Source: Pseudomonadota bacterium
GTDB taxonomy: Bacteria; Pseudomonadota; Gammaproteobacteria; Pseudomonadales; Pseudohongiellaceae
Direction: 5' to 3'
DNA length: 23,246 nucleotides
NCBI GenBank assembly: GCA_022563075.1
Contig: JADFOC010000002.1
Span: 1-23,246 of the forward strand
The translations under genes were made by a program, and so were the position numbers. This document shows, one piece after another, positions 5,153 through 23,245 of this stretch. The notes under the pieces are model-generated. The model was not told the DNA's origin. It searched no databases and saw only the letters and a list, made by a program, of their open reading frames with translations. Position 1 is the first letter of the stretch, and each line of letters starts with the position of its first letter.

Positions 5153-5746
5153 CTACCGTGTATCGACTTCTGCCAACCAGGCTCGAAACAACGCAATCTT
5201 GGATTCATCTTTTCGGGTCTCGAGACAGACAAAGTAATAATGCAGGTCGGAAAAGTATTCGATATCAAACAGACGCACCAGAATACCTGATTCGAGATGA
5301 TCCTGAACCAATTCTTCGCGCACCAGACATATACCTTGTGCTTCGATGGCGGCCCTGATCTGGGTGCCGGTGTCGTCATAGTACTTGGTGTTTTTTACCG
5401 CATAAGCCTGCCCAGCCCCCTCGAACCAGTTTGCCCACTCATCGTACGGCAGGGAATCTATAAGCACCGTATGGCTGCGCAAATCGGCGATTTTATCGAT
5501 GCCTTTGGCCAGCGCCGGGGTGCAAACCGGGAACATCCTGTCCTGGGTCAGTTGTTGGCAGAACAAGCTGTCCCATTGACCATTGCCCAGCCTGATGCCG
5601 GCGTCGATATCGACTTTTACCGCGAAGTCCACATTGCTATAGGACGAGGCTAGCCGAACAGAAAGATTCGGGTGTTTAGTCTCGAATTGTCCCAGTCGAG
5701 GCAGTAACCAGTTGCTGGCAAAGCTTGGCAGTACCGACACGGTCAA
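5153..5746 (-). CDS. LysR regulator, C-terminal (effector-binding) part of a frameshifted gene
   Basis: This 197-residue open frame carries the substrate-binding domain of a GcvA-like LysR-type regulator, starting with 'LTVSVLPSFASNWLLPRLGQF', the usual first beta-strand after the linker. The family-typical 'DAGIRLGNGQWDSLFCQQL' follows. It overlaps the 3' end of the DNA-binding half by four bases in another frame. Its apparent start is a TTG in the middle of the conserved linker with no ribosome-binding site, so it is unlikely to be an independent gene. Reading the frame upstream of the TTG gives linker residues R-Q-S-N-T-T that fit the family, so one base appears to have been lost near 5763-5769. 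Joined, the two parts would make about 295 residues, normal for the family. Confidence 0.85.
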   Translation of the reverse strand: MTVSVLPSFASNWLLPRLGQFETKHPNLSVRLASSYSNVDFAVKVDIDAGIRLGNGQWDSLFCQQLTQDRMFPVCTPALAKGIDKIADLRSHTVLIDSLPYDEWANWFEGAGQAYAVKNTKYYDDTGTQIRAAIEAQGICLVREELVQDHLESGILVRLFDIEYFSDLHYYFVCLETRKDESKIALFRAWLAEVDTR

Positions 5747-6027
5747 CGTGGTGTTGGATTGCCTGCTAAGCTGTCCACTCCGTGATTAATGATATCCAAT
5801 GCGGCGGTGACGCTTTCCAGAAACTGTTCGCCGTGCTGGGTGAGGGACAGATAGGGGCCTTTACGGGCGAACAGCCGACAATCCAGCTGTGCCTCCAATA
5901 ACTTGATTTGCTTACTCACTGCCCCCTGGGTAACGAAGAGTTCAGCGCCGGCCTTGGTAAAGCTGAGGTGTCTGGCCGCGGAATCGAAGAAGCGGATAGC
6001 GTTTAATGACGGCAATGATTTTTTCAT
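5743..6027 (-). CDS. LysR regulator, N-terminal (DNA-binding) part of a frameshifted gene
   Basis: This 94-aa open frame is the winged helix-turn-helix of a GcvA-like LysR regulator: 'LPSLNAIRFFDSAARHLSFTKAGAELFVTQGAVSKQIKLLE' followed by the wing 'LDCRLFARKGPYLSLTQHG' and the linker helix. It stops in the linker after 'DSLAGNPTPR', where family members continue into the effector domain found in the next frame. As read, only the DNA-binding domain plus a partial dimerisation helix would be made, which might still bind DNA weakly but could not respond to ligand. It starts with ATG at 6027 behind a weak ribosome-binding site. It is divergent from the DUF4329 gene, across a spacer holding a perfect LysR-type dyad. 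Confidence 0.85.
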   Translation of the reverse strand: MKKSLPSLNAIRFFDSAARHLSFTKAGAELFVTQGAVSKQIKLLEAQLDCRLFARKGPYLSLTQHGEQFLESVTAALDIINHGVDSLAGNPTPR

Positions 6028-6771: not shown

Positions 6772-6797
6772 GCACAACTGGACACCAAAGCTCCGCT

Positions 6798-8579
6798 CTA
6801 CCTTGAGACGAGATGACCGTAGTAGTGTCCCGCCGCAGCCAGAGAGGAAATTGGCTGATATTCTCCTGCATAGACCACCTGGTTTCTGCCGCTAGCTTTG
6901 GCCCGGTAGAGCGCCTTGTCGGCTTCGGTAAATAATTTTCTTGGTTTTGGCGCTACCTCGTTGTTCGAGACGGGCTTATAGCTGACGGCGCCGATACTGA
7001 CCGTGAGCACTTCAGCGGTACGAGAAGACTCGTGAGGAATCTGTAAAGCGTAAATTGCGCTGCGCATTGTCTCTGCTCTTTCCTGCAGTTCCAGCCCATC
7101 GCATCCCGCAAGAATAATGGCGAATTCTTCACCACCGTAGCGGGAAGGCATATCGCCACTGCGTTTAAATACCTTTTTCATGCATTTGGAAACTTGAATT
7201 AGACATTCATCACCGGCAGCGTGTCCATAGTGATCGTTATATTGCTTAAAAAAGTCGATGTCGATGACAATAAGCGAAAGTGGTGAGAGTTGGCGGGTTG
7301 ATCTTTTGAGTTCTTTGAGCAAGGTCGAATCAAAGTGGCGACGGTTGTAAAGATCGGTTAAAGAGTCAGTTATCACGGTCTTGGCCAGGCGAGCGTTAGT
7401 CTGACTCAATTGTACGTTTAGCGCCATCAGTTGCTCTTCCATGGATTTCAAGTGAGAGATGTCGTTTAGCACCCCAATGAATACAGTATCGTCCTCGATT
7501 TCCATCTTGCTAAGTGATAGTCGAACGGGTAAAACACTGCCGTCCTTACGCCGCACCTGCACTTCGCTTTCCGGTGCCGAGTCCTGCTCGCGTTGGTGAT
7601 CGATGAAGCCGTTGAGATATTTTGCTGCGTCCTTGGCATCGGAGTCAGTAATGAATAAAGTAATATGGCTATCGATCAGCTCGTGGTGGCTGTAGCCTAG
7701 TAATTCCTCCGCAACAAGATTCATCGACTCTACGGTACCGTCCATGCGCACGGTAATAAGTCCATCCGGCATGGTGTCGATCAGTGATTCATAGCGTATT
7801 CGTTTTTCGTTAGTTATTCCGTCATCGGTATCGATTTTGTCAAACAATTCGTTGATGGAGTTGCCAATAGAAACCAATTCGTTGTTTCCATGCATGATGA
7901 TGCGCGTTTTTCGGTCACCCTGCTTGAATCGGCTAATATTCTTAATAATGTCTCGTGCTCGATTTGATACAGTGAGAGTGAGGATAAGCAGGATGATGCC
8001 TGCCGCCAATACGGTTCCGGCCCCCGAGATAGACAGTCTATTTGATCGGGCTAATTCGATTTGACCGAGGTGATAGGCCAGGTCAATTTCTATGTAAAGT
8101 ACGCCGCAGCTTTGCGGGCTTGGTATGCCTGCATCGGAGAAATTACAGATTCGGGTCATACCTGCCAGAACTTGGCCATCGTCCAATACCGTCACTTGTA
8201 ATTGTCCCCCGGACACCGCGTTGATCATGGCAGACAAGGGTGCATGATTTATCGGGTTCCAATGTTTTCCTAATTGTTCAGCATTGGTGGCGGCGACAAC
8301 AATGCCGGCCGGATCGGCTACGAAAAGCGCGATCAGATCTTCGGCCAATATGAAGCTGGTAATCGAATTCTGTAATTCCCTGTTTGCGCCCAGTGAGAGA
8401 AAGAGTTCACTTGAGCTTTGTAAGTAGTTCAAGGTATTTCTTAGTGTGATTGTACTCGAGTCGAGAATGTGCTGATTGTCCAAGCGCCTGGACGTGGCGT
8501 AATCGAGGGACAGCGTAGTGGCTGCCAGCAGCAGCAGACATAAGGGGATAACAACCCGTGTGCTGAGTAAATATTTCAT
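6798..8579 (-). CDS. Membrane diguanylate cyclase (sensor-HAMP-PAS-GGDEF)
   Basis: A 593-aa signalling protein. A first transmembrane helix (residues ~8-25) and a second (~185-205) bracket a periplasmic sensing region. A HAMP-like segment (~205-255), a PAS domain (~260-375, 'LIDTMPDGLITVRMDGTVESMN') and a GGDEF domain (~400-570) follow. The catalytic motif is GGEEF at 482-486, with 'DIDFFKQYNDHYGHAAGD' for metal and substrate binding. The product-inhibition I-site RSGD lies at 473-476, five residues before the motif, so the enzyme should be active and feedback inhibited. It would make cyclic di-GMP in response to a periplasmic and/or PAS-sensed cue. It converges with the DUF4329 gene with 26 nt between stops. 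No EAL or HD-GYP domain is present. Confidence 0.93.
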   Translation of the reverse strand: MKYLLSTRVVIPLCLLLLAATTLSLDYATSRRLDNQHILDSSTITLRNTLNYLQSSSELFLSLGANRELQNSITSFILAEDLIALFVADPAGIVVAATNAEQLGKHWNPINHAPLSAMINAVSGGQLQVTVLDDGQVLAGMTRICNFSDAGIPSPQSCGVLYIEIDLAYHLGQIELARSNRLSISGAGTVLAAGIILLILTLTVSNRARDIIKNISRFKQGDRKTRIIMHGNNELVSIGNSINELFDKIDTDDGITNEKRIRYESLIDTMPDGLITVRMDGTVESMNLVAEELLGYSHHELIDSHITLFITDSDAKDAAKYLNGFIDHQREQDSAPESEVQVRRKDGSVLPVRLSLSKMEIEDDTVFIGVLNDISHLKSMEEQLMALNVQLSQTNARLAKTVITDSLTDLYNRRHFDSTLLKELKRSTRQLSPLSLIVIDIDFFKQYNDHYGHAAGDECLIQVSKCMKKVFKRSGDMPSRYGGEEFAIILAGCDGLELQERAETMRSAIYALQIPHESSRTAEVLTVSIGAVSYKPVSNNEVAPKPRKLFTEADKALYRAKASGRNQVVYAGEYQPISSLAAAGHYYGHLVSR

Positions 8580-12751: not shown

Positions 12752-13447
12752 TTAGACTTCTAACCATTCGGCACGAACATCATCGGCTTGCATCAAGCTA
12801 TCCGGAGTGCCTTCGTACACGACCGTACCGTGTCCCATGACGTACAAGCGATGAGAAATCTTCAGTGCGATGGACAGTTTCTGCTCTACCAGCAAGATGG
12901 CGACACCACGCTTAGCTATTTCCTGTAGTAGCTTGGCTACTTGCTGAACAATTTTGGGCGCCAGGCCTTCGGTCGGCTCATCGATCATTATTAAATCGGG
13001 GTCGCCCATCAGGGTTCGGCACATGCAGAGCATTTGTTGTTCACCACCGCTGATGACGCCGCCATCTACGTCGGCTCTTTCACCCAAGATTGGGAACATA
13101 TTGAATATATCTTCGATACTCCAACGTCCCCGTATCTTGGTGGATTTCATGCCCAGGATTAGGTTTTGTGACACAGTGAGAGTGGGGAAGATATCGCGAT
13201 TCTCCGGCACGTAGCCCAGGCCCATTTGAGCGATTTCAAAACTCTGCTTGCCGGCTATCTCTTTACCCTTAAATTTTACTGAGCCCTGTGGTGCCACTTC
13301 TCCCATGATGGTCTTCAAGGTTGTGGATCTGCCTACGCCATTACGTCCCAGCAGGCTGACTATCTCACCTTCGGCCACATTGAAATTGACGCCCTGTAAG
13401 ATATGGCTCTTGCCGTAATAGGCATGTAAATCTGAGACTTCAAGCAC
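12752..13447 (-). CDS. livF: LivF-like ABC ATPase with Walker A Lys-to-Arg change
   Basis: A 231-aa ATP-binding subunit of a branched-chain-amino-acid-type importer. The Walker A reads G-R-N-G-V-G-R-S-T: the nucleotide-binding Lys is Arg (codon AGA, 13328-13330; residue 40 from the GTG start). Other motifs are intact: signature 'ISGGEQQML', Walker B 'LIMIDEPTEGL', switch region 'ILLVEQ'. GTG at 13447 is preferred because GGAGG sits nine nt before it; the TTG at 13456 abuts GGAGG directly. It overlaps the 3' end of the LivG-like gene by eight bases, indicating translational coupling. Last gene of the operon. The Arg could cripple ATP hydrolysis in this subunit or be a sequence error. Confidence 0.92.
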   Translation of the reverse strand: MLEVSDLHAYYGKSHILQGVNFNVAEGEIVSLLGRNGVGRSTTLKTIMGEVAPQGSVKFKGKEIAGKQSFEIAQMGLGYVPENRDIFPTLTVSQNLILGMKSTKIRGRWSIEDIFNMFPILGERADVDGGVISGGEQQMLCMCRTLMGDPDLIMIDEPTEGLAPKIVQQVAKLLQEIAKRGVAILLVEQKLSIALKISHRLYVMGHGTVVYEGTPDSLMQADDVRAEWLEV

Positions 13448-14192
13448 TGACTGCAACCTCCCCCAGGTAGGCTTCCTGCACCCGAGGATTGGCGCGTATG
13501 TTTTCAGGATTGTCCGTGGCTATTATTTCTCCATAGACCAGCACCGAAATTCTGTCGGCCACATCAAATACGATATTCATATCGTGTTCTACCATGATAA
13601 GCGTCTTGCCTTCGGTTATTTTTCGAATCAGCTCTACCGCATTCTCTGCCTCGCTATGGCTCATGCCCGCCACCGGCTCATCTAACATTATTAATTCCGC
13701 GCCACTTGCAATCGCTATACCGAGTTCCAGCGCTCGTTGCTGGGCATAAGCCAGTTCACCGGCTGGAAACAAGGCTTTATCTTGCAAGCGGATCTGTTCC
13801 AGTACATGCATGGCTTTTTCGTTGAGCTCGTGTTGCTTGCCAAGCAGGTGCCAGAACGAATATCGATACCCACAACTCCACAGCAGAGCACAACGAACGT
13901 TTTCAAACACATTCATGCGAGCAAAAATGTTGGTTACTTGGAAACTGCGTGCCAGACCGAGCCGATTTACTTCGTAGGGTGTCTTATTCTGTATTTCATT
14001 CTGCTTGAACTCAATAGTGCCGCTCGTCACATTAAAGAGTCCGCTTATTAAGTGAAATAACGTGGATTTACCGGCGCCGTTAGGTCCGATGATCGCATGT
14101 TTTTCACCTGGTTCAATATCGAGTGAAACTCCACGGATGATTTCGGTTTCACCAAAATTCTTGCGTACATCTTTAAGCGAGAGAATGGCCAC
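13440..14192 (-). CDS. livG: LivG-like ABC ATPase
   Basis: A 250-aa ATP-binding subunit. Walker A is canonical: GPNGAGKST with Lys42. The signature region reads 'LAYAQQRALELGIAIASG', in which the usual LSYGQQR is LAYAQQR. Walker B is 'LIMLDEPVAGM' and the switch His lies in 'LIMVEHDMNIV'. It pairs with the LivF-like subunit to power uptake; since that partner has Arg in its Walker A, this may be the principal catalytic subunit if the heterodimer is functional. It starts with GTG at 14192, three nt after the LivM-like stop, with AGG upstream. Fourth gene of the five-gene cluster. Confidence 0.93.
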   Translation of the reverse strand: MAILSLKDVRKNFGETEIIRGVSLDIEPGEKHAIIGPNGAGKSTLFHLISGLFNVTSGTIEFKQNEIQNKTPYEVNRLGLARSFQVTNIFARMNVFENVRCALLWSCGYRYSFWHLLGKQHELNEKAMHVLEQIRLQDKALFPAGELAYAQQRALELGIAIASGAELIMLDEPVAGMSHSEAENAVELIRKITEGKTLIMVEHDMNIVFDVADRISVLVYGEIIATDNPENIRANPRVQEAYLGEVAVSA

Positions 14193-14195
14193 GAT

Positions 14196-15428
14196 CTACC
14201 TGTCCTCGCTATCGGGAAATGAATTAGCGGATTCCCACGCATCGCTCAGTTGTCCAACTGATCTGCGAGTTGCATAGAATGAGCCGGCCGCGATAGCAAT
14301 CGTTATTATCCAGGTTAGTGTTGCCGATGGATCTAGCTCCAAGCCCAGGTAGTGAAACACTTCTTCCTCGAGATGACTCATCTCGACTAAGGCGATGCAG
14401 GCTGATGTGAATATGGCAGCGGGAATGCCCGTAATCAAATAGGGGAGAATCAATGATTTCAAGTTTCCTCTAAGCCAGACTACCTGGTGCATCATGATGA
14501 AGCCGGCAAAACCCCGTGGTAAAAACATCACCGTGAGCACGAACATGATGCCGAGATAGAGCAGCCACAGGTCGCTGTAATTACTAAGCAGTGAATTCAT
14601 CAACGTAAGGATGACGGCGCCGACGATGGGGCCGATGAAATAACCGAGACCGCCAATGTATGCCATTAACAACACGCGACCAGAGGTAATGGCATTCAGA
14701 CTTTCATCGGTTATAAATTCGTAGTTCAGGGCAAACAAACCGCCGGCGATTCCGGCGAATAACCCGGATGCACAAAAAGAGATGAAGCGTACGCGACGAG
14801 CGCTGTAACCGATGAACTCAGCTCGTTCGGGGTTATCCCGAACGGCATTCGCCATGCGTCCGGAAGGAGTCTGGGTGAACAGGTACATGAAGACGGTGGC
14901 GATGAATACCCAGACCGCCGACAGGTAATAGATCTCCAGATCTTGAGCAAAATCCACACCAAAAAACAGTGGCCCAAAGGTCCGGTCACCACTAATGCCA
15001 GCTTCGCCTCCAAAAAAACTCACGAAGATAAGTGACGATGCCGCAATCAGTTCGCCAATTCCCAGTGAGATCATGGCGAATACAGTACCGGCCTTGTGGG
15101 TAGAGAAACTCCCGATAAAAATCGCGGCGATTAAGCCAAACGCACCCCCAATCAGTGGAATCAACAGGATTGAAAAATAGGCCGTCTCAGATTCGATCAT
15201 GATTAGTGCATGCACCGCCATGAATCCACCCAGACCGAAATAAACCGCATGGCCAAAGGACAACATGCCGCCTTGGCCTAATAACATGTTGTAGCTGAGC
15301 GCAAAGACAATGCCGATTGCCATTTGATTGAGAATTGAAATGGCGAGGATGGAATCAAACAATCGCGGTAATATTAATAAAACCACCAGGTATCCGATCC
15401 AGACAGACAGTTTTTTAACCATGCTCAT
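14196..15428 (-). CDS. livM: LivM-like permease with C-terminal extension
   Basis: A 410-aa inner-membrane permease. The core (about residues 1-310) has the family motifs 'LSYNMLLGQGGMLSFGHAVYFGLGGF' and 'YSARRVRFISFCASGLFAGIAGGLFALNYEFITDES', and ends in 'MFLPRGFAGF'. About 95 further residues follow, with two more hydrophobic segments and an acidic tail, which ordinary LivM proteins lack at this end. The frame is open further upstream to 15533, but ATG at 15428 overlaps the LivH-like stop by one base (TAATG), so coupled translation from there is preferred. It forms the channel with the LivH-like subunit. Confidence 0.92.
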   Translation of the reverse strand: MSMVKKLSVWIGYLVVLLILPRLFDSILAISILNQMAIGIVFALSYNMLLGQGGMLSFGHAVYFGLGGFMAVHALIMIESETAYFSILLIPLIGGAFGLIAAIFIGSFSTHKAGTVFAMISLGIGELIAASSLIFVSFFGGEAGISGDRTFGPLFFGVDFAQDLEIYYLSAVWVFIATVFMYLFTQTPSGRMANAVRDNPERAEFIGYSARRVRFISFCASGLFAGIAGGLFALNYEFITDESLNAITSGRVLLMAYIGGLGYFIGPIVGAVILTLMNSLLSNYSDLWLLYLGIMFVLTVMFLPRGFAGFIMMHQVVWLRGNLKSLILPYLITGIPAAIFTSACIALVEMSHLEEEVFHYLGLELDPSATLTWIITIAIAAGSFYATRRSVGQLSDAWESANSFPDSEDR

Positions 15429-16378
15429 TATTGCTCTCGCTTGCCAAGTAATCCGGTAGGTCTGAAAATCAATACCAGCACTAACAATAAAAATGGCAGA
15501 ATTGGCGCCACCTGTGGCAGGGTGAGAGTCCATAAGTCGTTGAGCGGGTGACTACGCTCGAAAGAAAGCCCCAACAGATTTAGTAGATCGGGCACACCAA
15601 CGTCAGAGGCAATGGCGTAGGACTGTAACAGGCCAATAAGTAGCGCGGCGATAAACGCACCTGCCAGCGAACCCAGACCCCCAATCACAACAATCACGAA
15701 CACGATGCTGCCCAACACCGCCGCCATGCCAGGGAATGTGGTTAATACAGGTCCTGCGATCACCCCGGCAACGCCGGCTAAAGCCGTGCCCACGCCAAAT
15801 ACACCCATGAATATCAATGGTACGTTGTGCCCCAGATTGGCTACCGTATGTGGATGGGTGATGGCGGCCTGAATAATAATGCCGATGCGACTGCGGGTGA
15901 GCACGTAATAGAGACCGATGAATATGGCGATGGATATGCCGATCATGAATCCACGGTAGGCTGAAAATTCCTGTCCAAAGAGGGTAAACAAGGGAAAATT
16001 GAGAATGTCTGGGTATCGATAGTTTTTGGTATCGGTTCCCCAGAAGAAGGAAATTGACTCTTCGATCAAGAAAGCCATGCCGAAGGTAAATACCAGCTCT
16101 GCCACATGACCCAATTGATGCACGCGTCGCAGTCCATAGCGTTCAACCCCGGCGCCGAGTACTCCGACAATAATTGGCGCGAACAGTAATCCAGCCCAAA
16201 AACCCATGTACTGGCTGATGGAATAAGCAAAGTAAGCGCCCAGCATATAGAAACTGGCATGGGCAAAGTTGAGCACACCCATCATGCTGAAAATCAGGGT
16301 TAGACCGCTGGCTAACATGAACAGCAACAGACCGGTCACCAGGCCATTGAGAGTGGCGAATATGAAGACTTCTAGCAT
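15428..16378 (-). CDS. livH: LivH-like permease
   Basis: A 316-aa polytopic permease with about eight hydrophobic helices. Family motifs: 'LNGLVTGLLLFMLASGLTLIFSMMGVLNFAHASFYMLGAY' at the N-terminus, 'YYVLTRSRIGIIIQAAITHP' in the coupling region that contacts the ATPases, and 'VIVVIGGLGSLAGAFIAALLIGLLQSY'. It is the partner of the LivM-like subunit, whose start codon overlaps its stop. It begins 42 nt after the stop of the binding-protein gene. Substrates in the family include branched-chain amino acids, urea, amides and aromatic acids, so the cargo is not certain. Confidence 0.94.
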   Translation of the reverse strand: MLEVFIFATLNGLVTGLLLFMLASGLTLIFSMMGVLNFAHASFYMLGAYFAYSISQYMGFWAGLLFAPIIVGVLGAGVERYGLRRVHQLGHVAELVFTFGMAFLIEESISFFWGTDTKNYRYPDILNFPLFTLFGQEFSAYRGFMIGISIAIFIGLYYVLTRSRIGIIIQAAITHPHTVANLGHNVPLIFMGVFGVGTALAGVAGVIAGPVLTTFPGMAAVLGSIVFVIVVIGGLGSLAGAFIAALLIGLLQSYAIASDVGVPDLLNLLGLSFERSHPLNDLWTLTLPQVAPILPFLLLVLVLIFRPTGLLGKREQ

Positions 16379-16420
16379 GGTAGCTTCAGCGCGTCCTCTT
16401 CCGTAACTACTGTATACGGA

Positions 16421-17680
16421 TTAACGACTAGGACGCTTCATATTACAGCTTGAATCGACGATGGTTTCTTCTGCAGGAACGTGGTATACGCTGAATAAAC
16501 CATAACCGGAATTATCGGCATCGAACTCGATTCCTTCGTCGGTGTGTACCGATATATGCAAGGATTGAAAGATCTGATGATCGGAGCCTCGCATCCAAAT
16601 CTCTTCACCACTTAAGGTAGTAAATCGCATGTCTTCCAGTGCCAGGGCAATATCATAGGGGTCAGTGCTCTGGGTTTGTTCCATCGCCGCTACCACCATC
16701 GACAGTGCATTGATTATGCGTGGTTGGGTGACGTCGTTATTCGGATGGCGTTTCTTAAACGCGCGGATGAATGCCTTGCGTTCTTCAGTTGGGATAGGGT
16801 TGGAAGTTTCGTTGTGGATCAATCGGATCCTGCCCTTGCCGTCTTCACCCAGGGTGGCGGTGATACCGTCGTAAGCCGCATAGAACGTATAGATAGGAAT
16901 GTCCAATCCACTATCGATGATCGAACGAGCCAGCGAAACCATGTCGGCGCCAAAATTTCCGGTGATAACTGCATCGGCTCCCGACGAAACTATTTTGGTG
17001 ACATAGGGGGTGAAGTCCTTGACCTGGCCGATTGGATGAAACTCGTTGCCCACAATTTCGATGTCGGGTCGCTTTTCGTTGAGCAGTCTAATAGCGGTTT
17101 CGGAGACGATGTGGCCAAAAGAATAGTCTTGGCCGATGATGTACATGCTCTTGATGTCCTCATTCATTGCGATGTAATCTGTGAGAACGTTCAGTTTCAT
17201 GACTGCATGGGCATCGAAGCGAAAATGCCAGAAACTGCAATTCTCTTCGGTGAGTATCGGATCGACTGCAGAATAATTAATCTGCAGGACCTCCATGCCG
17301 GGGTTGCGACGGTTGTGTCGGGAGATAGTGGCGCTCAGCGTATTTGCCACGGCAGAGCTATTGCCTTGAAAGATGATTCGAAGACCTTCGCTGATAGCGC
17401 GTTTAAATTGTAGTTGAGTTTCGGTGGGGCTCTGTTTGTTATCCAGGGGCACGATTTCGATCATGCGTCCCCCTAAAATCCCGCCTCTGGAGTTAAATAA
17501 ATACTCGGCCGCGAATTGAATCTGTTTCAAACCACTGGTGCCGATGGAGGCAAAGGTCCCGGAAAGTGGATCCATGAAAGCGATTCTCACCGGTTCTTGA
17601 GCCAGGCTGATAGGGCTGATGGAAAGTAGTGCGGCAAGCAGTAAGCTGTTCAGTTTAAGCGCAAATTTTGACTTATTCAT
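16421..17680 (-). CDS. livK: Periplasmic substrate-binding protein of Liv-type ABC importer
   Basis: A 419-aa protein with a signal peptide (MNKSKFALKLNSLLLAALLS..., cleavage near ISLAQ). The type I periplasmic binding fold is shown by 'VRIAFMDPLSGTFASIGTSGLKQIQFAAEYLFNSRGGILG' at the N-terminus, 'IFQGNSSAVANTLS' near the ligand cleft, and 'SMYIIGQDYSFGHIVSE' and 'GADAVITGNFGADMVSLAR' in the second lobe. It is first in the cluster of binding protein, two permeases and two ATPases, all on the minus strand with short gaps. The 'LivK' name reflects the position and fold; this divergent type may bind other amino acids, amides or organic acids. No strong ribosome-binding site or promoter was recognised in the 154 nt upstream. 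Confidence 0.9.
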   Translation of the reverse strand: MNKSKFALKLNSLLLAALLSISPISLAQEPVRIAFMDPLSGTFASIGTSGLKQIQFAAEYLFNSRGGILGGRMIEIVPLDNKQSPTETQLQFKRAISEGLRIIFQGNSSAVANTLSATISRHNRRNPGMEVLQINYSAVDPILTEENCSFWHFRFDAHAVMKLNVLTDYIAMNEDIKSMYIIGQDYSFGHIVSETAIRLLNEKRPDIEIVGNEFHPIGQVKDFTPYVTKIVSSGADAVITGNFGADMVSLARSIIDSGLDIPIYTFYAAYDGITATLGEDGKGRIRLIHNETSNPIPTEERKAFIRAFKKRHPNNDVTQPRIINALSMVVAAMEQTQSTDPYDIALALEDMRFTTLSGEEIWMRGSDHQIFQSLHISVHTDEGIEFDADNSGYGLFSVYHVPAEETIVDSSCNMKRPSR

Positions 17681-19610: not shown

Positions 19611-20795
19611 CTAATATACCTCAAACAAGCCGGCTGCACCCATGCCTCCGCCGACACACATGGTACAAACAACATACTTTGCGCCGCGACGCTTGCCTTC
19701 GATGAGAGCATGGCCAACCATGCGGGCACCGCTCATACCGTAGGGATGTCCGATTGAGATGGCGCCGCCATTGACGTTTAACAATTCGTTGGGAATGCCC
19801 AGCTGATCGCGGCAATAAATGACCTGAACCGCAAACGCTTCATTAAGTTCCCACAAGCCAATATCGTCCATCGACAGATTGAAGCGCTGCAACAGTTTTG
19901 GTACCGCGAAAACAGGCCCAATTCCCATTTCGTCTGGGCTCACACCGGCTACGGCAACGCCGCGATAGGCGCCCAATGGTTCAAGACCTTTCTGTTCCGC
20001 GAGTTTACTGTCCATGATCACCGAGGCTGAAGCCCCATCGGATAATTGACTGGCATTGCCAGCGGTGATTACGCCACCTTCGAATACGGTTTTCAAACCA
20101 TTCAGGCCTTCCAGGGTAGTGGTGGGGCGATTGCCTTCATCTTTTTCTAGGGTCACGTCGTGAACGCTTTGCTGTTTGGTTTCCTTATCCGTGAACAGCA
20201 TCTTCGACGCCATCGGCACCAGTTCATCATCGAACTTTCCAGCGTCCTGCGCCGCGGCGGTTCGTTGTTGACTCTGTAAGGCATATTCGTCTTGCTGCTC
20301 GCGAGTAATGCCATAGCGTTTGGCAACCACCTCTGCCGTTTCCAACATGGATATATAGGCCTGCTCTGACTGGGCGATCACATTGGGATCTTGCGCGCGA
20401 TAGTTATTGCGATGCTCATTCTGCACCAGAGAGACCGATTCGAGTCCGCCACCGATAATGATGGGCACGTTGTCGGTAATAACTTGTTTGGCGGCGGTGG
20501 CAATCGCCATCATGCCGGACGCACATTGCCGGTCGATGCTCATGCCCGCTACCGAGCTGGGTAGTCCGGCAACCACACCGGCAGTACGACCGATGTTATA
20601 ACCGGATGAACCCTGCTGCATGGCACAGCCCATTACCACATCATCCACTTCGCCCGGCTCAATCCCTGCACGTTTTACGGCGGCGGCGATAGCATGACCA
20701 CCCAGTGAGGGTGCATCGGTGTCATTAAATGCGCCACGGTATGCCTTGCCAATGGGTGTTCTAGCTGTCGATACGATTACGGCTTCTCTGGTCAT
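19611..20795 (-). CDS. Thiolase (acetyl-CoA C-acyltransferase)
   Basis: A 394-aa thiolase that either cleaves 3-ketoacyl-CoA or condenses acetyl-CoA units. The nucleophile is Cys91 in '[11 protein letters not shown]'. The other catalytic motifs are 'ELNEAFAVQ', '[17 protein letters not shown]' with the active His, and '[13 protein letters not shown]' with the second Cys, so it should be active. ATG at 20795 is chosen because GGAG lies six nt upstream; the frame also contains ATG at 20807 and TTG at 20816. It follows the UGSC selenoprotein by about 110 nt on the same strand, so it may have its own promoter. It probably works in beta-oxidation or a related acyl-CoA route. Confidence 0.94.
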
Positions 20796-20907
20796 TCTTG
20801 TCTCCATCAACTCCAAAAAATATCTTAAGGTGCAAACGATTACTGCATCTAACGTTCGATAACGCGACAGCTGCTTGCTTATACGGCCTAGGGTCTTATC
20901 TCAGCGC

Positions 20908-21432
20908 TTACTTCTCATAAATCAATGCTGTGACCGCAGCGGCTGCATCTCGCGCTAACTGCGCCATCTCCTCATCGGTGCGATCCTGAATTGGATGGGA
21001 GACGAATACACTCGCCGGTTTGATTCCCAGTGATTTACCTTGTGCCTCGGCTGCTTCAACGAATTCACAGGAAGCGATAAAGCCTGCGGGAATTCCTCTG
21101 CTTTCCAGGTCCATGATGTCATGCAAACTGCACGAGGTACATGAGCCTCAGTCGGCCAGTCCTTCGATAACGGCGTCACACTCGACGCTGATTTTCTGAT
21201 TTAGCTCGGTTGGAGCCGTTCTGGCAAAGGTTGGCTTCATGTATCTGTTTACTTTGGCTCCCAACTTCAGCAAGTGCTTTTCGATGACATCGAGGAACTC
21301 TTTGCCCCGGGGTTTGGAGATATCGAGTAGACCTATGGTTGCACCTGCAATACTGGAGAGCCGTGGTAATAATTGGCGTTCCGATGGCTGCAACTCGGCC
21401 GTTGGATCTAACAATGTTGTTGAACTAATCAT
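20908..21432 (-). CDS. UGSC-family selenoprotein (in-frame TGA = selenocysteine)
   Basis: Read through one in-frame TGA (21148-21150), this gives a 174-aa protein. The TGA is codon 95 and falls in 'VIEGLAD-U-GSCTSCSLHDIMDLE', which is the U-G-S-C motif that names this family, with two further Cys nearby. Coding character continues in the same frame after the TGA ('GIPAGFIASCEFVEAAEAQGKSLG', 'VFVSHPIQDRTDEEMAQLARDAA') to a normal stop. A candidate bacterial SECIS hairpin lies just downstream of the TGA. ATG at 21432 has AGAGAG upstream. It follows the CPTC thioredoxin-like gene by 14 nt. The family is reported from marine metagenomes and is presumed to be a thiol/selenol redox protein; the reaction is not established. 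Standard gene callers would split it into 94- and 72-aa ORFs. Confidence 0.88.
21119..21150 (-). promoter_or_regulatory. Candidate bacterial SECIS element
   Basis: Just after the TGA (21150-21148) the minus strand can form a hairpin: TCATG (21144-21140) pairs with CATGA (21123-21119), then a U-G pair, two bulged U residues, a two-base-pair AC/GU helix, and an apical loop CUCGUGCA containing G-U. The bulged U and the G-U in the apical loop, about 15 nt after the codon, resemble the SelB-binding features of the E. coli fdhF element. The pairing was found by eye and no energy was calculated. Confidence 0.5.
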
Positions 21433-21446
21433 GACTTACTCTCTTA

Positions 21447-22895
21447 TTAAAATTTCTGGGAAACGATTTGACTGCCTCGTTCCCCCGATGCGACCCAGCC
21501 ACCGATGATGGCTGAGAATAATCCGGCAGTGCCACCGGTAGAAACGATATGTAGCCCATCGTCTCGAAACTTGTTAAGTAGTTTTTCCTTGAATTTTTCC
21601 GGCATGCCTTCGGCGATGTCGTTAGCGCCTCGCACAAGTTCAGCGCCAGGTGTCCTTAATTCATCATATAAAGCCTGCTTCACATCCGCTTTGCTCCATC
21701 CTCCGCTGCGATACACGCGTCGATGTTCCGGCGAGATGACGAGCATGGCGTCGGCGAGTCCGAAGATTTTAGCATGGGCGACGCTACGCAGGCTTAAAGC
21801 CATGCTTTTTGCCAGAGACTCTGGATTGCGCGATTGTTGATCTACAATGGGTTGCAGCCCATCACCCGCAAATAGACTTATTACCGAGTCGTCGCGCTGA
21901 AATCCCCGGTCCATGGCCAGTGATGGCCAGTCGCTGTCTGACTCGTCCTCGGCAAAGCAGAAGCTGTATTTTCCTGGATTGCCCATGGTGGCTCGGTCGA
22001 TGCCGCCAGGTACGCCGCCACCCACATTGCGGATCACCAGTTGCAGGGCGCGGCCGATAGTGGCGTTAGCCCGGTTACCCTGGCCCAGGGCATTAACCCC
22101 TGAATTCATCCCGATCTGTTTGCTGATGGGCCCGTTAACCACCATTACCGGTGATGAAAAATAAGTGGTGCAGAGCAGGCCGTGCATACAGAATCGGTCT
22201 TGCAACGCGGCCTCGATGGAGGCAATGACCACTGAAAAATATTCTGGTTTACATCCGGCCATGACTGCATTGATAGCGAGCTTCTCGATAGTGCAGGAGA
22301 CATTGTCCGGAGGAATCTTACCTATTATTTCGTCGGCGCTGCGATCGCTACCCTTTAGCATTCGCATCACCCGCAAAGGTGTCGGAGGAACCACGGGCAA
22401 TCCATCACTCCAGCCACGATCGAAGCAGGCCTCCATGGTGTCTTCTGATTCTGCGAGTTGTATTTTTCGGGCGCTAAATTGTTCCTTGCCAAATCTCAGT
22501 GCCAGCCGTTCATCCATGCCGGGATCTTGTGTCTTGGAACCACAACCGGGTTTAAAATCGATTAGTTCTGCACCGAGATCGTCAATACCGGTGAATTCTC
22601 GCCATTGTTGTTTGTCCCATCCGACTATTCTGGATTCTTCTTCTAAGTCATTGCCCAGACGCATCAGTGTAGGTACGATTTCGATGGCATTCCTATAGGA
22701 ATATTCCAGCGAAGTATCATCTATGCGAGTAGAGATACTGGCTGGAAACGATGGGTCGTCCTGCACATAGACTGTGAGCTTAGCGTCGAACTGCTCCGCC
22801 AGCGACCTTATTACTGGCTCGATTAGAACACAGGTCGGACAGTCTCGTTTGACTATGAGTGCGTAATTACGTTGCTTTGCCTGATCCAAAAACAA
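21447..22895 (-). CDS. Thioredoxin-like plus UGSC-associated large protein
   Basis: A 482-aa protein. The N-terminal ~90 residues look thioredoxin-like: 'YALIVKRDCPTCVLIEPVIRSLAEQF' has a CPTC redox motif and 'IEIVPTLMRLGN' could be the cis-Pro region. The long C-terminal region carries 'FDRGWSDGLPVVPPTPLRVMRML', 'GGVPGGIDRATMGNPGKYSFCFAEDE' and 'STGGTAGLFSAIIGGW', a pattern I associate with proteins encoded next to UGSC genes; its reaction is unknown. The start is uncertain: TTG at 22895 or the TTG two codons later, which has the better-spaced GAGG. It is directly upstream of the UGSC selenoprotein (14 nt), so the two probably act together as redox partners. No signal peptide is seen. Confidence 0.8.
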   Translation of the reverse strand: MFLDQAKQRNYALIVKRDCPTCVLIEPVIRSLAEQFDAKLTVYVQDDPSFPASISTRIDDTSLEYSYRNAIEIVPTLMRLGNDLEEESRIVGWDKQQWREFTGIDDLGAELIDFKPGCGSKTQDPGMDERLALRFGKEQFSARKIQLAESEDTMEACFDRGWSDGLPVVPPTPLRVMRMLKGSDRSADEIIGKIPPDNVSCTIEKLAINAVMAGCKPEYFSVVIASIEAALQDRFCMHGLLCTTYFSSPVMVVNGPISKQIGMNSGVNALGQGNRANATIGRALQLVIRNVGGGVPGGIDRATMGNPGKYSFCFAEDESDSDWPSLAMDRGFQRDDSVISLFAGDGLQPIVDQQSRNPESLAKSMALSLRSVAHAKIFGLADAMLVISPEHRRVYRSGGWSKADVKQALYDELRTPGAELVRGANDIAEGMPEKFKEKLLNKFRDDGLHIVSTGGTAGLFSAIIGGWVASGERGSQIVSQKF

Positions 22896-22975: not shown

Positions 22976-23009
22976 TAGGGCACCTCTGAACAATGCAGTA
23001 ATGTCTCAG
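22976..23009 (+). repeat. Left terminal inverted repeat (34 bp)
   Basis: It begins TAGGGCACCTCTGAACAATG and ends CTCAG. It matches the reverse complement of the right terminus at 32 of 34 positions; the two differences are transitions. Confidence 0.85.
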
Positions 23010-23211
23010 CGGGTCCTGAAGCGTTCAGTTGCAAGGCACGCTTCGCAGGCAATGGCCTTAGTCCTTGTCAACAAGTGTAACGCCGCAAATGAGCGCTTCA
23101 GGGCCCGCCCTACGGGGCTTTCAGGCAGCTTAGCACTCGGCGTTAGGACCGCTTGAAAGGTAATAAACATTTCTGCGCGATCCTGTCTTGATTGCTAACC
23201 TGCCTGAAAGC

Positions 23212-23245
23212 CTGAGGCATCACTGCATTGTTCAGAGGTGCCCTA
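23212..23245 (-). repeat. Right terminal inverted repeat (34 bp)
   Basis: Read on the minus strand it begins TAGGGCACCTCTGAACAATG and ends CTCAG, pairing with the left terminus with two mismatches. Base 23212 is shared with an internal 19-bp inverted repeat. Confidence 0.85.

Follow-up and report, generated by a model that had tools for sequence, protein, structure and literature searches.

An apparently split UGSC-family gene in a Pseudohongiellaceae bacterium, its usual upstream partner and a possible distant relation to GrdB

We examined a stretch of DNA of 23,246 nucleotides (hereafter the window; contig JADFOC010000002.1 of assembly GCA_022563075.1) from a Pseudomonadota bacterium of the family Pseudohongiellaceae, which carries on its minus strand a gene of the UGSC family of selenoproteins (20908..21432). 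The frame starts with an ATG at 21432, runs for 94 codons to an in-frame TGA (21150-21148) and continues for 79 codons to a TAA at 20910-20908, giving 174 residues if the TGA is read as selenocysteine (Sec95). A first-pass annotation of the sequence alone had described two minus-strand open reading frames (ORFs) of the same frame separated by a single TGA, and had predicted that read-through would restore the exact UGSC motif of the family. Both statements were confirmed: the product around the TGA reads ...GLAD-U-GSCTSCSLHD..., with the selenocysteine (Sec) inside the motif at the position where the family has Sec or Cys. The family assignment also holds: the 174-residue product exceeded the curated cut-offs of both family profiles, with 141.5 bits for NCBIfam NF041046, which is titled "UGSC family (seleno)protein" and requires 125, and 138.7 bits for Pfam PF24696, which requires 25. 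On its own, the stretch preceding the TGA reached 49.4 and 56.3 bits, respectively, and the gain from 49.4 to 141.5 bits for NF041046 indicates that family sequence continues beyond the TGA. These profile comparisons support the view that the apparently split gene is a single gene for a predicted selenoprotein, a new member of an already known family.

The in-frame TGA (21148..21150, minus strand) was compared with the homologous site in relatives. One genome per species was scanned; of the 239 places confirmed, the best 80 were kept, so distant UGSC members are under-sampled. According to their titles these 80 loci (labelled L below) belong mostly to Gammaproteobacteria, including several Pseudohongiella/Pseudomonadales, and in part to Actinomycetota and Latescibacterota. 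TGA stands at the site in all of these loci and in the window (81/81), without any other stop in the matched stretch, so that the sequence on both sides of the TGA, which had looked conserved at first sight, forms an intact frame throughout. The first-pass annotation had also named homologues that end at the TGA as evidence against its own reading, and such proteins do exist: the protein database held 248 relatives, and 110 of the 120 matches listed stop just short of the site, the other ten having Cys (3), Trp (2), Arg (1) or sequence of other kinds (4) there. Because the DNA frame continues past this point and is conserved, we read the 110 short proteins as truncations made by gene callers. 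Taken together with the hairpin and the Sec machinery described below, these sequence comparisons make it almost certain that the UGA encodes Sec.

Two groups of divergent copies were also recorded. One locus (L121; G547:C6, about 6790-7246, minus strand) holds a frame-shifted UGSC copy of the Cys type, which is probably decayed; its in-frame TGA sits away from the Sec site, and the Sec site itself has TGC. A divergent subfamily (L122:7077 and L129:6622, minus strand) reads YGH-U-GSCTTGTVRD and keeps the TGA, without the AGT motif of the hairpin described below and without the third cysteine.

A hairpin directly after the TGA had been claimed from the sequence, and one is predicted there (21107..21148, minus strand) as a putative bacterial selenocysteine insertion sequence (SECIS), modest by its energy and constrained in its codons. 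Its first nucleotide is the last base of the UGA, and it folds with -15.8 kcal/mol over 46 nt, a value that 12 of 200 shuffled sequences equalled or exceeded (z -1.76); longer folds were ordinary (61 nt, z -0.74; 94 nt, z -0.73), and Rfam gave no match in the window at gathering scores. Its apical stem and AGUUU loop (21119..21135, minus strand), in which nt 16-21 pair with nt 27-32 counted from the U of the UGA, appear to be the constrained SECIS core, judging from codons, pairing and comparison with fdhF. The codon for Ser102 was AGT in 81/81 loci, AGT making up 13% of the serine codons in the partner genes of the same loci; that for Cys101 was TGC in 81/81 loci (61% usage in the partner genes), and residue 100 was encoded by TCG in all 76 loci with a serine there (14% usage). 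Ser97 of the UGSC motif, two codons past the TGA, varied (TCA 52, TCC 14, TCG 13, TCT 1, AGT 1). The hairpin is thus constrained at synonymous sites, and this codon constraint is stronger evidence than the fold energy.

Pairing was followed in a hand-chosen alignment of 42 distinct sequences, which omits near-duplicates, the divergent loci L122 and L129 and the Cys forms L119/L106 and L121. The six apical pairs were formed in 98.0% of the cells and three of them were invariant, while the lowest pair departed in 5/42 sequences. One pair was G-U in 33 sequences, G-C in 8 and A-U in 1, and in L118 a two-sided change from C-G to G-C in one pair went with the replacements Cys to Trp and Leu to Phe. 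The covariation of the apical stem is therefore slight; 11 to 13 of 500 shuffles reached the observed values. Finally, the sole intact Cys homologue with DNA examined has TCG instead of AGT as its serine codon, which suggests, from this one case, that the codon constraint goes with Sec.

The first-pass annotation had concluded that the host would have Sec machinery, which proved right for three components: selA (571.6 bits), a selB truncated at the edge of its contig (positions 103-580 matched with 223.5 bits, below the cut-off of 242.25) and one tRNA-Sec (63.7 bits; anticodon tca according to ARAGORN). The fourth, selD, was not found in the host assembly (2.97 Mb in 531 contigs, 73.8% complete). 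In the genus, selD exceeded the cut-off in 38/41 genomes, the window's included among the 41, and the three without it were the window's own and two of 85% and 66% completeness. A weaker selD-like match (about 40-70 bits), general among the congeners, is also absent from the window's assembly, which fits incompleteness of that assembly. A further UGSC gene in the window's genome (L095) shares 32% identity with the one described here and has the TGA and the same AGT hairpin codons. As a separate observation, one congener (L101; G269:C40) has a selD with an in-frame TGA in a 349-aa frame, and in most other congeners the frame that holds the selD match spans about 750-800 aa, which points to fusion proteins.

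Directly upstream of the UGSC gene lies a gene for a partner protein of 482 residues (21447..22895, minus strand), which combines a thioredoxin-like N-terminus with a CPTC motif and a domain of about 350 residues that we call domain X (about residues 141-482; 21450..22475, minus strand). A relative of the partner was found at most 500 nt upstream of UGSC in 80/80 loci (77 by ORF call and three by tblastn), and a CxxC motif within the first 110 residues of 69 of the 78 called partner ORFs, the window's included. In L088, and in the other copy that the window's genome carries, domain X occurs without the thioredoxin part. The two components also go together across genomes: among 398 sampled Pseudomonadota genomes the X profile and the UGSC family matched an identical set of five, among the genomes of 38 relatives an identical set of 24, and neither sample held a genome with X alone or UGSC alone. 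The independent part of this co-occurrence is smaller than these counts, because the window's own genome is in both samples and two of the five matching genomes of the 398-genome sample gave rows of the X profile (L103 and L106). UGSC and X are usually but not always adjacent: in L127 and L128 they are separated by 2 to 4 kb that contain other genes.

Among 15 aligned X domains, Cys75, His98 and Asp160-Arg161 (numbered by the first row) were among the invariant positions. In L118 a thioredoxin-reductase homologue (TIGR01292, 168.9 bits, below the 343.45 required) is followed by UGSC and then by two copies of X. Sequence searches for a solved relative of the partner returned only weak thioredoxin matches (best E 0.38 and 0.083), structure comparison of the whole partner was dominated by its thioredoxin domain, and a fumarate hydratase fold for X was rejected as too weak (Foldseek rows from Leishmania, E 4.6e-3 to 9e-3, root mean square deviation about 15-17 A). 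An in-frame TGA noted in the X copy of L137 turned out to be that copy's own terminal stop.

Between the thioredoxin part and X the partner has a PGCGS motif, whose cysteine is Cys118 in the window (codon at 22542..22544, minus strand). A pattern search of the loci found the motif in 73 of them, with Cys in 70 (TGC 37, TGT 33) and an in-frame TGA in three loci that are Actinomycetota by title (L085:4853-4855, L086:4853-4855 and L089:4859-4861), which would place two putative selenoprotein genes in a row. The three loci are close to each other, and their frame is conserved on both sides of the TGA. The pattern missed 8/81 loci: L016, L023 and L063 reach a contig end in or just before the partner, L088 has no thioredoxin part, L091 and L065 show Cys, and L017 and L059 are undecided. 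Among the 120 protein matches listed, all close relatives of the window's partner, Cys occupied the site in 119, and the site was not located in the remaining one. The hairpins after the three TGA codons were no better than shuffles (z -0.33, -0.07 and 0.26), so Sec in these partners rests on position, conserved frame and host. The pattern is suggestive of a partner that is itself a selenoprotein in three Actinomycetota, with a Sec/Cys pair at the Cys118 site; Cys118 would then be a working redox residue.

The structure model of UGSC had a mean pLDDT (predicted local distance difference test) of 91.5 and five strands alternating with helices, and it supports a flavodoxin-like alpha/beta protein with Sec95 predicted at the start of a helix. 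The beta-alpha-beta-alpha-beta-beta-alpha topology of a thioredoxin fold was not seen in the predicted model, and this candidate was set aside. A search by sequence gave no credible solved relative of UGSC (best E 0.83 and 0.26), and the top Foldseek rows were receptors and catalases with a flavodoxin-like domain, as read from their titles, which shows no more than a common fold. In an alignment of 53 UGSC members (47 derived from DNA and 6 database proteins), 39 matched the GrdB profile TIGR01917 (best E 8.4e-6) and 35 matched GrdF (best E 1.7e-5); these E-values are not independent of one another, since the proteins are related. The window protein scored 15.2 bits against a TIGR01917 cut-off of 602.2. 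We therefore consider that UGSC may be distantly related to GrdB, the selenium subunit (protein B) of glycine reductase.

The next gene downstream of UGSC is a thiolase (acetyl-CoA acyltransferase; 19611..20816, minus strand) recognised by profile matches, a possible member of the same operon. A thiolase lay within 1 kb downstream of UGSC in 55/80 loci, the contigs of L045 and L069 ending too soon to tell. Near divergent UGSC copies we found CoA-transferase III (L124, L125), enoyl-CoA hydratases (L123, L124, L130), and acyl-CoA dehydrogenases with an AMP-binding enzyme (L121). Other UGSC copies adjoin a molybdopterin dehydrogenase, a dicarboxylate symporter, an ABC ATPase, a sugar dehydrogenase and others. 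A link of UGSC with coenzyme A (CoA)-ester metabolism is suggestive only.

The remaining features of the window are side observations. About 2 kb beyond the thiolase, on the same strand, there is a five-gene set for a branched-chain amino-acid/urea-type ABC (ATP-binding cassette) transporter (12752-17680), parts of which recur downstream of UGSC in about 30/80 loci; it might import the substrate of the UGSC system. A 270-bp element (22976-23245) sits at the end of the contig, immediately upstream of the partner gene; its inverted ends of 34 bp are 94% complementary and enclose inner inverted repeats. Because two near-identical pieces begin the contigs C496 and C492, with a 71% copy on C450, it looks like a repeat of the MITE (miniature inverted-repeat transposable element) type that broke the assembly. 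Finally, a LysR-type regulator appears as two overlapping ORFs in different frames (5153-6027; helix-turn-helix part 5743-6027, substrate-binding part 5153-5746), presumably through a frameshift or a sequencing error.

In surveys of the ocean, UGSC ranks among the commonest selenoprotein families. It is in print since the GOS survey of 2008, in surveys of 2016 and 2021 and in reviews of 2022 and 2026, as far as the available texts show; those texts give 255 Sec and 21 Cys sequences for GOS (PMC2398784) and 8.2% of selenoprotein genes for a later survey (PMC9402790). The first-pass annotation had called the reaction of the family undefined, in agreement with the accessible part of the 2026 review, which places UGSC among families with largely uncharacterised function (PMC13188914). 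The 2008 paper, in the part available, describes UGSC fused to a domain "Unknown_1" with a conserved Cys (PMC2398784); this domain may be the partner described here. The literature searched, mostly without subscription papers, yielded no paper on UGSC function and, within the texts available, no link between UGSC and GrdB and no Sec form of the partner. The family itself being already known, what this analysis adds is the constant partner, the possible distant GrdB relation and the putative second Sec/Cys site; neither the partner gene nor the GrdB relation figures in the first-pass annotation.

With a rough probability of 0.5, we propose that UGSC and domain X form a thioredoxin-reduced, GrdB-like two-component selenoenzyme; of the elements of this proposal, UGA recoding, the hairpin constraint and the constant partner are those supported by comparison of sequences. 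SelB, aided by the hairpin that directly follows the UGA, would deliver Sec-tRNA to this codon, yielding the 174-residue protein with Sec95. UGSC and the upstream domain-X protein would be two halves of one redox enzyme, a reading favoured by the presence of X upstream in 80/80 loci and of both components in the same 5/398 and 24/38 genomes. UGSC would then take the role that protein B has in glycine, sarcosine or betaine reductase: Sec95 may attack a substrate held with domain X, and Cys98 may resolve the selenium adduct. A relay through Cys118 of the partner (Sec in some Actinomycetota) and the thioredoxin domain would restore the reduced state, as suggested by the CxxC in 69/78 partners, the TGA at Cys118 in three loci and the thioredoxin-reductase homologue beside the UGSC gene of L118. 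The reductive cleavage would be GrdB-like, because 39/53 members match TIGR01917 and 35 match GrdF, and the product would probably enter CoA-ester metabolism, given the thiolase in 55/80 loci and the CoA-type enzymes near divergent copies.

Several results weigh against this proposal. None of the curated GrdB/PrdB cut-offs (TIGR01917, TIGR01918, TIGR04483) was reached by UGSC, none of the 53 members matched PF07355 at E <= 1, and six divergent Sec-type members had no GrdB match. When UGSC was aligned by hhalign with eight GRDB-like proteins, E was 0.012 and the probability 3.5%. These eight, whose motif is NCPxCHQ with Cys and without Sec, came from a GRDB search outside the clostridia, within the host's own class and phylum, that matched 3/229 class genomes (1 over the cut-off) and 7/398 phylum genomes (6 over the cut-off). 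Domain X had no Pfam match at E <= 0.01 and no fold or family was assigned to it, and the neighbours of UGSC differ among loci. In addition, the AGT hairpin motif is missing from L122 and L129, which retain the TGA and in which no SECIS was found, and the 73.8%-complete host assembly lacks a recognised selD.

A possible though doubtful alternative is that UGSC is a selenoprotein acting as a general thiol-disulphide or peroxide oxidoreductase, without glycine-reductase chemistry, and that it has the upstream protein as substrate or as redox partner. This would suit the UxxC motif of UGSC and the thioredoxin domain of the partner, and the available text of the 2008 paper already guesses at a thioredoxin-like, redox-active protein (PMC2398784); however, the UGSC fold predicted with a pLDDT of 91.5 is not that of thioredoxin, and strict co-occurrence with one specific partner domain would be unusual for such an enzyme. 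It is improbable that UGSC is a non-catalytic chaperone or activator subunit, with an Mmp7/McrC-like fold, binding a cofactor or metal and maturing or activating domain X: that fold is common, the sequence families show no link (no methanogen marker among the NCBIfam matches of the 53 members), and the selenium, which is nearly always kept, points to catalysis. A real stop or an assembly error, leaving a pseudogene in two pieces or a true protein of 94 residues, is scarcely credible. The missing selD, the frame-broken Cys-type relative L121 and the 110/120 listed homologues that end before the site would fit it, but the TGA within an intact conserved frame in 81/81 loci and the fixed hairpin codons reject it, and selA, selB and tRNA-Sec are present in the host genome.

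Returning to the two-component selenoenzyme, we raise only tentatively the wider idea that UGSC and X represent an unrecognised and widespread branch of the glycine/proline reductase superfamily, carrying out thioredoxin-driven, selenium-dependent reductive cleavage in marine and other bacteria that are not amino-acid-fermenting clostridia and feeding CoA-ester pathways; domain X would then be a new substrate-binding subunit, and both subunits would be selenoproteins in some Actinomycetota. The partner, the predicted non-thioredoxin fold, the putative Sec/Cys site of the partner and the possible distant enzyme relative make the function of UGSC testable.

Compared with known systems, the window protein is a full member of the UGSC family (NF041046, PF24696), with the TGA at the motif and a UxxC arrangement, and no difference was seen. 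Its predicted hairpin resembles the SECIS of E. coli fdhF (UGC-AGGUCU-GCA against UGC-AGUUU-GCA in the window), with the GCA equally far from the UGA; it differs in its loop, AGUUU instead of AGGUCU, and its predicted apical stem has no bulged U. With the Mmp7/McrC proteins of the methyl-coenzyme M reductase activation complex UGSC shares only the predicted fold; no sequence link was found, and UGSC is without sign of their iron-sulphur clusters. As regards GrdB, GrdF, GrdH and PrdB, residues 81-151 of UGSC can be aligned to positions 333-398 of TIGR01917, which is the Sec region, and UGSC has a motif of the UxxCxxC type that the 2026 review, in its accessible part, names for GrdB (PMC13188914). 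UGSC differs from GrdB/PrdB in its length (174 residues against profiles of 238-435) and in scoring far below all their cut-offs, and it was found with another partner domain, in this analysis in genomes outside the clostridia.
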